This document shows, piece by piece, positions 55,597 to 58,632 of a DNA stretch of 64,000 bases (position 1 is its first letter; every line of letters begins with the position of its first letter). The notes beneath the pieces were generated by a model, which saw nothing but the letters and a program-made list of their open reading frames with translations, did not search any database and was not told the DNA's origin. Source of the stretch: Haloarcula rubripromontorii (GTDB lineage Archaea > Halobacteriota > Halobacteria > Halobacteriales > Haloarculaceae); assembly GCF_001280425.1 (NCBI RefSeq), contig NZ_LIUF01000004.1, positions 186,001 to 250,000 on the forward strand. Direction: 5' to 3'. A program made the translations under genes and the position numbers.

Positions 55597-56886
55597 ATGG
55601 ACATCACCATTGCCGAGTCGACGGTCGAGGGGACAGCGCAAGCGCCGCCGTCGAAGAGCTACACGCACCGAGCGGTGCTGGCCGCGGGCTATGCGGATGG
55701 CGCAGTAGTCCGCGACCCGCTCGTGAGCGCGGACACGAAGGCCACGATGCGAGCGGTCGAGGCCTACGGCGGCGATGTCTCGCTGGCCGACGACGGATCG
55801 ACGGTCGAGGTGACGGGCTTCGACGGCCGACCGGAGACGCCGGACGATGTCATCGACTGTGCCAACAGCGGGACGACGATGCGACTGGTCACCGCAACAG
55901 CCGCCCTGCAGGACAAGCTCGCGGTGCTGACTGGTGACGAGTCCCTCCGGTCGCGCCCGCAGGGGCCGCTGCTCGACGCCATCGAACAGCTGGACGGCGA
56001 CGCCGAGTCGACTCGCCGGAACGGGCAGGCCCCGCTCGTGGTTGGCGGTGGCATCGACGGCGGCGCAGTCGAGATTCCCGGCGACGTGTCCTCGCAGTAC
56101 ATCACTGCGCTGGTGATGGCAGGTGCCGTCTCGCCGGAGGGCATCGACATCGATCTGACAACCGGCCTGAAGTCGTCGCCGTACGTCGATATCACGCTGG
56201 AGGTGCTCGCCGACTTCGGCGTCGACGCCGAGAAGACCGACGACGGGTTCACCGTGGAGGGCGGCCAGTCCTACGCGCCCGACGGCGGCGACTACAACGT
56301 CCCCGGGGACTTCTCGTCGATGAGCTACCTGCTCGCGGCCGGCGCGCTTGCCGCCGAGGACGGCCTGCGCGTCACGTCGGCGTTCCCCAGTGCACAGGGC
56401 GACGCCGCCATCGTCGACATCCTCGACCGGATGGGCGCAGACCTCGACTGGGACAGGGAAAACGGCGAAATCACCGTCTCGAAATCCGAACTGACCGGTG
56501 TCGAGGTGGGCGTCGAAGACACGCCAGACCTCCTGCCGACCATCGCGACGCTAGGGGCTGTAGCTGACGGCGTCACGCGGATTACCGACGCCGAGCACGT
56601 CCGGTACAAGGAGACCGACCGCGTGAGCGCCATGGCCGAGGAACTGACGAAGATGGGTGCCGAGGTAGAGGAACACCAGGACGAACTCATCGTCTACGGC
56701 GAAGACAGCGACCTCGTCGGCACGACCGTCGAGGGTCGCGTGGACCACCGCATCATCATGTCACTGGCCGTCGCCGGACTCGTCGCCGACGGCGAGACGA
56801 CGGTGACCGGCGCGGAACACGTCGACGTGTCTTTCCCTGAGTTCTTCGACGCGCTCGAATCGCTCGGTGCGGCCATCAAGCGGTAG
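55597..56886 (+). CDS. aroA: 3-Phosphoshikimate 1-carboxyvinyltransferase (EPSP synthase)
   Basis: Coding starts at ATG 55597 ([15 protein letters not shown]); the longer open frame upstream is antisense to the SDR. The 429-residue protein has [15 protein letters not shown] at the N-terminal active-site Lys, NSGTTMRL (Asn-Ser-Gly-Thr), [12 protein letters not shown] and [11 protein letters not shown]. It joins shikimate-3-phosphate and phosphoenolpyruvate to EPSP in the cytoplasm. A hairpin plus T5 follows the gene. It forms a loose shikimate cluster with aroC. Confidence 0.95.
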
Positions 56887-56888
56887 GC

Positions 56889-56915
56889 CCGGCGGTCACC
56901 GACGCGCCGGTTTTT
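56889..56915 (+). terminator. Hairpin and T-tract after aroA
   Basis: CCGGCG (56889-56894) pairs with CGCCGG (56905-56910), followed at once by TTTTT (56911-56915). It begins three bases after the aroA stop, and is likely an intrinsic-like terminator. Confidence 0.55.
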
Positions 56916-56934
56916 GCGACGAAAGACAGTTATA

Positions 56935-56959
56935 TATCTGATAGATAGGTGCGCTTATA
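56935..56959 (+). promoter_or_regulatory. Palindrome and TATA-like box upstream of the receiver-like gene
   Basis: TATCT-GAT-AGATA (56935-56947) is a perfect 5-3-5 inverted repeat. The cttatac element at 56953-56959 lies about 30 bases before ATT 56986. The palindrome directly upstream of the box looks like an operator. Confidence 0.4.
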
Positions 56960-56985
56960 CTACGTGAAGAGTATTTACAACACAC

Positions 56986-57384
56986 ATTGTAAACAAACCG
57001 GACGACGCCACGCGGCCCCCCGCGGAGGCCGCGAGAGTCCTCTACGTCGACGACGACCAGCTGCTGCTTGACCTGCAGGCCGACATCGCCGCCGAACGCG
57101 AGGCAATCGAACTCGTAACGACGACGGACACCGACCGGGCGAAGGCGCTGCTGGACGACCGCGAGTTCGACTACGTCGTCGTCGGTGGCAAGCGCACTGT
57201 CACGGCAGCGTGCAGATTTGCCCGCGAGGTCCGGGCGGCACATCCCGACACGCCCCTGGTACGGTATGACTGGGAGGCCAGTGGAGATGACGTAGACGCA
57301 GTATTCGATTCGGTTCTGGAAAAACAGGTCGAAGCGACGGGGACGGTACAGCTCCTCGACCGCGTCAGGTGGCTCGACGACTGA
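56986..57384 (+). CDS. Receiver-like protein with an apparent ATT start
   Basis: The frame from TGA 56965-56967 to TGA 57382-57384 codes for about 132 residues, but contains no ATG, GTG or TTG before the conserved part. The best start is ATT 56986 (then VNKPDDATRPPAEAARVLYVDDDQ), which would be at leaderless spacing from the TATA-like box. The domain is receiver-like: VLYVDDDQLLL holds the acidic pocket. The phospho-acceptor strand reads FDYVVVGGKRT, with Gly where Asp is expected, so it is a pseudo-receiver. It lies between aroA and aroC. It could be damaged or be a non-canonical start. Confidence 0.6.
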   Translation: MVNKPDDATRPPAEAARVLYVDDDQLLLDLQADIAAEREAIELVTTTDTDRAKALLDDREFDYVVVGGKRTVTAACRFAREVRAAHPDTPLVRYDWEASGDDVDAVFDSVLEKQVEATGTVQLLDRVRWLDD

Positions 57385-57432
57385 GGGGCGCATCTACAAG
57401 GTTCAAATGCCCGCAACCCCGACACCACTGTA

Positions 57433-58632
57433 ATGAACGGCAACGAGTTCGGTCGTCTGTTCCGCATGACGACCTACGGCGAGTCTCACGGGGATGCGAT
57501 GGGCTGTACCGTCTCCGGTGTTCCAGCGGGCGTCGAACTCTCGGAAGCGGAGATACAGAAGGACCTCGACCGGCGCAAGCCCGGCCAGTCGATGATTACC
57601 ACCTCGCGGGGGGAACCCGACAAGGTGAGCATCCAGTCCGGGATTCAGGACGGCTACACGACCGGGACCCCCATCGGCATGGTCATCCAGAACAAGGACG
57701 CCCGCTCGGGCAAGTACGAGCCGTTCATCACGGCTCCGCGGCCCTCCCACGGCGACTACACCTACTCCGCGAAGTTCGGCACGCGGAACTGGGGCGGCGG
57801 CGGCCGCTCCTCGGCCCGCGAGACGGTCAACTGGGTCGCCGCCGGCGGCGTCGCCAAGCAGGTCCTCGAACAGTCCGACTACGACATCCAGATAAAGGCC
57901 CACGTCTGCCAGATCGGCGACGTGGTCGCCGACGACGTGACCTTCGAGGAGATGCTCGAACACAGCGAGGAAAACGAGGTCCGCTGTGGCGACCCCGAGG
58001 CCGCCGAAGAGATGCGGGAACTGGCCGACAAGTACCAGAAGGAGGGCGACTCCATCGGCGGGGCCATCTACTTCGAGTGTCGCGGCGTCCCCCGCGGGCT
58101 GGGCGCGCCTCGCTTCGACTCAATTCCCTCGCGGCTCGGCCAGGCGATGTACTCCATCCCGGCTGTCACCGACTTCGAACTCGGCATCGGCCGCGAGGCC
58201 CGCACTGCCACCGGGTCGGAGTACACTGAGGACTGGGAGTTCTCGGCCGACGGCGACCCGGTCCCCGTGGGCAACGACCACGGTGGCCTCCAAGGCGGTA
58301 TCACGACGGGCGACCCCATCTACGGCGAGGTCACCTGGCACGCGCCCGTCTCCTTCCCGAAGACTCAGAAGACCGTCGACTGGGAGACGGGCGAGGAAAA
58401 GGAGATCACCGTCACCGGCCGGCACGACCCAGTCCTGCCGCCGCGAGCCGTCCCGGTCGTCGAGGCCATGCTCGCCTGTACGATACTAGACTTCATGCTG
58501 CTCGGCGGCCGCATTAACCCCGACCGACTCGACGGCCGGCCGGGCGAGTACGACACCGACTACCACCCGTCCAGCCCGCAAAACGACCCGGAAGACGCGG
58601 ACACCCACGCGAAAACCATCGACGACGACTAA
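57433..58632 (+). CDS. aroC: Chorismate synthase
   Basis: The 399-residue protein has the family hallmarks GRLFRMTTYGESHG at the start, RSSARETVNWVAAGGVAK (basic FMN/EPSP contacts), GNDHGGLQGGIT and RHDPVLPPRAVPVVEAM near the end. It converts EPSP to chorismate using reduced FMN. The start at ATG 57433 is 48 bases after the receiver-like gene. aroA lies upstream, so two consecutive late shikimate steps are here. Confidence 0.96.
   Translation: MNGNEFGRLFRMTTYGESHGDAMGCTVSGVPAGVELSEAEIQKDLDRRKPGQSMITTSRGEPDKVSIQSGIQDGYTTGTPIGMVIQNKDARSGKYEPFITAPRPSHGDYTYSAKFGTRNWGGGGRSSARETVNWVAAGGVAKQVLEQSDYDIQIKAHVCQIGDVVADDVTFEEMLEHSEENEVRCGDPEAAEEMRELADKYQKEGDSIGGAIYFECRGVPRGLGAPRFDSIPSRLGQAMYSIPAVTDFELGIGREARTATGSEYTEDWEFSADGDPVPVGNDHGGLQGGITTGDPIYGEVTWHAPVSFPKTQKTVDWETGEEKEITVTGRHDPVLPPRAVPVVEAMLACTILDFMLLGGRINPDRLDGRPGEYDTDYHPSSPQNDPEDADTHAKTIDDD

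Follow-up and report, generated by a model that had tools for sequence, protein, structure and literature searches.

In Haloferax, GUG as a start codon on leaderless or short-leader mRNA is weaker than AUG by a factor of 5–37, and from UUG no product is detected (PMC4574771). A GUC start on a leaderless mRNA was reported in Halobacterium salinarum (Srinivasan et al. 2006, as cited in PMC4574771). Among prokaryote start codon switches, the recorded changes from GUG lead to AUG, UUG, CUG or AUU, the last of these once among 5,080 ancestral GUG starts; GUA is not among them (PMC5622118).

Receiver domains that lack the phospho-acceptor aspartate (aspartate-less receivers, ALRs) constitute up to 10% of archaeal receivers. 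Glycine is the substitute residue in 11% of ALRs, and ALR numbers are highest in Halobacteria and Methanomicrobia (PMC4395418).

A small open reading frame of Haloarcula rubripromontorii is related to both subjects. With ALR or pseudo-receiver domains (PMC4395418; also PMC12632262) it has in common an acidic DDD pocket and the lack of the phospho-acceptor Asp, and its predicted fold, modelled with low confidence, arranges strands and helices in a receiver-like order. It differs from them in that the protein is stand-alone, is restricted to the genus and is encoded between aroA and aroC, and the copy in Haloarcula rubripromontorii also has no start codon. The GUC start of Halobacterium salinarum, as cited in PMC4574771, is similar in being a GUN-type non-standard start on a leaderless haloarchaeal mRNA; there, however, initiation was demonstrated, whereas the Haloarcula case is a natural GTG-to-GTA change read from the sequence alone. 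As in the prokaryote switches (PMC5622118), an ancestral GUG has been replaced in one lineage, but the GUA outcome is unrecorded there.

The locus and its distribution

The window (the whole stretch of 64,000 nt that was analyzed) lies in contig 4 of one Haloarcula rubripromontorii genome, a draft of 3.97 Mb in 18 contigs. Three genes follow each other in the same direction:

55597–56886, plus strand: aroA (EPSP synthase), upstream neighbour; the 3′ end is certain (stop codon 56884–56886) and the start is taken at the ATG of MDITIAEST
56989–57384, plus strand: aspartate-less receiver open reading frame, 131 codons and a stop codon when the count begins at the ancestral start; nine orthologues align without gaps
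57433–58632, plus strand: aroC (chorismate synthase), downstream neighbour, with its ATG at 57433

The two neighbours are presumably aroA and aroC, names that follow the first-pass annotation and general knowledge of these families.

Orthologues were sought in 32 Haloarcula genomes. The receiver protein is present in ten, this one included, and the nine others (among them H. vallismortis, H. sebkhae and H. argentinensis) are 60%–76% identical to it. All ten carriers have the same distance between the end of the frame and the aroC ATG; between the end of aroA and the start position, eight share one distance and two have one base more. Thus orthology and register are secure. Twenty-two of the 32 genomes are non-carriers (18 of 28 when near complete, clean genomes are counted), and in the aroC tree some non-carriers are nested among carriers. 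Judging from this pattern of absence and nesting, the receiver gene is dispensable. No relatives of the protein were found in plasmids or viral contigs.

The Haloarcula rubripromontorii lineage is placed differently in the aroC tree and in the receiver tree. Compared with the closest relative (G027), AroC shows 98.5% identity and the receiver (56989–57384) just 74%, a gap that suggests recombination or very uneven rates across the locus. Given the conflict of the trees and this gap, recombination here is likely, and it limits the reading of gains and losses.

The receiver frame and its lost start codon

The receiver-like frame (56986–57384) is open between an in-frame TGA at 56965–56967 and the TGA at 57382–57384. 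The first-pass annotation stated that no usual start lies between the preceding stop and the conserved core. This is an understatement, as a scan of the whole frame finds no ATG, GTG or TTG at any codon. The nine orthologue frames have 3–10 such codons each. At the codon usage of this genome, a 130-codon stretch free of all three has a probability of about 0.005, a value that is low partly because the frame has no GTG and GTA is common among its valines.

The two codons of interest are:

56986–56988, plus strand: ATT, the start proposed by the first-pass annotation; GTT in 9/9 orthologues, where it is the codon just before the ancestral start
56989–56991, plus strand: lost start codon; GTA here, GTG in 9/9 orthologues

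All nine orthologues read GTT-GTG-AA(C/T), and Haloarcula rubripromontorii reads ATT-GTA-AAC. Both differences (GTTGTG to ATTGTA) are G-to-A changes, in codons that begin three bases apart. In eight of the nine orthologues the GTG is the sole ATG, GTG or TTG from the upstream stop to the receiver core; the ninth has an extra ATG 14 codons past the GTG and two ahead of the core. This makes the GTG at the position equal to 56989 the family start, and the alignment indicates that this ancestral start is lost in Haloarcula rubripromontorii through a single G-to-A change.

Three readings had been put forward earlier: a mutated start codon, use of ATT, or decay. The mutated start holds, as the GTG-to-GTA change at 56989; its placement at 56986 does not. 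An orthologue comparison between aroA and aroC had been suggested for an ATG at 56986, and 0/9 have ATG there. Since all nine have GTT, the ATT described as the probable start is not that of the family.

Six of the 16 valine codons in 56989–57384 are GTA (5.7% expected in the genome) and none is GTG. The GTA codons 1, 105 and 120 stand at GTG positions of most relatives. Nothing beyond chance and transition bias explains the excess of GTA.

A 165-codon open reading frame beginning with ATG lies antisense to the receiver gene (56896–57393, minus strand), and an annotation program may call this frame instead. As a real gene the antisense frame (57393–56896) was rejected; it is open in this genome only and is closed in the relatives.

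The aspartate-less receiver protein

The Pfam Response_reg profile (PF00072) matches the receiver frame with E = 0.046 and 14.3 bits, below the curated cut-off of 30.2. Alignment to the genome's own receivers gives a clear match, with the acidic DDD on DDD/DDE and Gly on the phospho-acceptor Asp. The DDD, an acidic pair at the end of beta1, is invariant in 10/10 orthologues. The position of the substitution is:

57184–57186, plus strand: Gly codon GGT, residue 66 (GTA = 1), in place of the phospho-acceptor Asp; invariant in 10/10

The Asp-to-Gly replacement noted in the first-pass annotation is confirmed by this alignment, but it is a family trait, found in all ten species, and not a sign of decay. 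At the position aligned with the beta4 Thr, seven relatives have Thr, two have Ala and this genome has Asp.

The AlphaFold model shows the order beta1-alpha1-beta2-alpha2-beta3-alpha3-beta4-alpha4 with a mean pLDDT of 59.7, and its C-terminal part is unreliable. Nearly all top matches of this low-confidence model in the PDB are receivers (best E = 4.2e-4). The assignment as a receiver is clear by alignment, is supported by a low-confidence predicted fold and is weak by profile. The family resembles an orphan aspartate-less receiver, stand-alone and limited to some Haloarcula. It may have a phosphorylation-independent role, acting through protein contact alone.

Putative promoter and conserved block at the start

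The elements upstream of and around the start are:

56935–56947, no strand: TATCTGATAGATA, a 5-base inverted repeat (TATCT/AGATA) with GAT at its centre, ahead of the TATA box; relatives conserve it in part
56955–56959, plus strand: TATA-like box TTATA, at a distance of 31 nt from ATT and 34 nt from GTA; the block from −36 to −31 is conserved
56977–56990, plus strand: conserved imperfect palindrome, ACAACACACGTTGT in most relatives and ACAACACACATTGT here, within the most conserved block

The spacing of TATA-like boxes was calibrated on ATG genes in 20 stretches of 20 kb of this genome and in the window. The 5′ base of the box has a mode at about −29 and a spread of about −27 to −33. A TATA-like box at leaderless spacing from the ATT had been reported; the 31 nt from TTATA to the ATT lie inside this spread, and the 34 nt to the GTG/GTA position lie just beyond it. 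The spacing points to a transcript start at about 56984 (range 56982–56988) and a leader of about 0–6 nt; for the relatives it predicts a leader of a few bases before the GTG. A perfect 13-base palindrome had also been described upstream of the promoter, but TATCTGATAGATA is imperfect, with 5-base arms around an unpaired GAT.

A conserved block, ACAACACACGTTGTG, spans the start region, and this genome alters two of its bases, both G-to-A. Positions −12 to +5 (ACAACACACGTTGTGAAT) are the most conserved stretch of the locus, with a mean pairwise difference of 0.07–0.11; in the same block comparison the receiver core gives about 0.18 averaged over codon positions, i.e. it is less conserved. In the seven species with the exact ACAACACACGTTGT, the pattern ACAACACRYGTTGT matches this locus only, genome-wide. 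The block probably has a local regulatory function at the start of the transcript.

Another Haloarcula genome, termed G014, has a divergent receiver-like gene between aroA and aroC (L067:2698–3318), 27% identical to the receiver of the window and with Ala at the phospho-acceptor site. A perfect 14-base palindrome, ACAACACGTGTTGT, stands at the same place before this gene. After the palindrome comes GTA, and seven codons later an in-frame GTG can serve as start.

Selection on the frame

A codon model was fitted to the ten sequences with the start codon left out. Omega (dN/dS) is 0.38 overall and 0.30 on the Haloarcula rubripromontorii branch, where omega = 1 is rejected (2ΔlnL = 5.7, p = 0.017); the branch value does not differ from the background of 0.39 (p = 0.61). 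The core codons alone give an omega of 0.23 on this branch (2ΔlnL = 7.8), with values above about 0.61 excluded at 95%. The branch length is about 0.11 substitutions per site, and the linker of the receiver is fast-evolving.

The frame in Haloarcula rubripromontorii has no stops and no indels, and its GC3 is similar to that of the relatives. The absence of stops is weak evidence by itself, as its probability under neutrality is 0.15–0.45 for 30–79 substitutions. The intact frame together with the rejection of omega = 1 indicates that any silencing is not old, and the suggestion that the gene has been decaying over a long time is disfavoured by the same data. Purifying selection is a branch average, and a recent loss would leave no mark in it.

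Origin and outcome of the missing start

The reading that we consider probable is that the gene lost its start recently and now yields little or no product. The small orphan aspartate-less receiver would be transcribed between aroA and aroC from its own promoter, with no leader on the mRNA or a very short one. The relatives start at GTG; here this codon has become GTA by one transition, probably recent in evolutionary terms, and no in-frame codon can replace it as a usual start. The outcome would be little or no protein, from a start-loss allele of a dispensable gene. As GUG is weak and UUG nil in Haloferax, GUA is expected to be weaker still. The second G-to-A change, 3 nt upstream of GTA, is inside the same conserved block. 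Two points stand against start loss: the GUC precedent cited for Halobacterium salinarum suggests that a near-miss codon may work, and nothing in the signal of purifying selection points to loss.

The gene might instead still be translated weakly from a non-standard start, either GUA at the old position or AUU one codon upstream. We think this rather unlikely. The frame is intact, with an omega of 0.23–0.30 on this branch, but selection averaged over the branch would look alike after a recent loss. The ATT stands at a TATA spacing of −31, inside the −27 to −33 of the genome and better placed than the old GTG. In codon-anticodon pairing AUU has one mismatch to the initiator anticodon, at the third base only, and GUA has two; thus ATT may be the rescuer, if there is one. 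The GUC start in Halobacterium (cited in PMC4574771) and the one GUG-to-AUU switch among 5,080 ancestral GUG starts (PMC5622118) are precedents. Against such a start are the very weak GUG and the nil UUG of Haloferax (PMC4574771) and the absence of GUG-to-GUA from the recorded switches (PMC5622118). In one form of this explanation, GTT-to-ATT and GTG-to-GTA changes would together have moved the start one codon upstream to AUU, with the gene still made; so specific a relay is quite improbable.

The remaining explanations have little weight. A single base decides the matter, and it is read from one draft genome in 18 contigs, so that a base error in the assembly, with GTG in the living strain, has to be considered. 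Typical consensus error rates are far below the approximately 0.11 substitutions per site of this branch, a second change lies 3 nt away and no other sign of poor sequence is seen nearby; an error is thus very improbable. An old pseudogene drifting without constraint would fit the lost start, the patchy occurrence in the genus and the fast linker, but it is hard to reconcile with the rejection of omega = 1 (p = 0.017; core 2ΔlnL = 7.8), the absence of stops and indels and a GC3 like that of the relatives, and we give it only slight credence. It could also be proposed that the GTG seen in the relatives belongs to a DNA element, the true family start being elsewhere and nothing having been lost here. 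The stretch from −12 to +5 is indeed the most conserved of the locus, and in the divergent receiver of G014 the position is likewise GTA, seven codons ahead of an in-frame GTG. This proposal is scarcely tenable, as in eight of the nine relatives that GTG stands alone as a usual start codon from the upstream stop to the core, the ninth adds just an ATG 14 codons on, and the frame of Haloarcula rubripromontorii has none.

If the start-loss reading is correct and the protein is not made, the locus cleanly shows gene loss at its very beginning, for a gene missing altogether from several relatives. Should the protein be made, this is a natural non-standard start on a leaderless archaeal mRNA, a question approached so far mostly by reporters; and if the relay to AUU is true, a natural haloarchaeal gene depends on a start codon outside the set of ATG, GTG and TTG. 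The protein family is ordinary, though lineage-specific, and the case is valuable as a clean test case provided by nature. A pipeline restricted to ATG, GTG and TTG starts would miss the receiver gene, and comparison with relatives alone reveals the event.

Palindromes elsewhere in the genomes

The palindrome at the start was rejected as a genome-wide operator; ACAACNNNNGTTGT is found at three places in the genome, no more than the reversed control. Similar palindromes of the form TTTA(A)CAACA..GTTGT are present in two other Haloarcula (L097:330 and 1501; L105:271 and 1501). These are near likely promoters of unrelated genes, at apparently homologous places, and possibly represent a wider motif.
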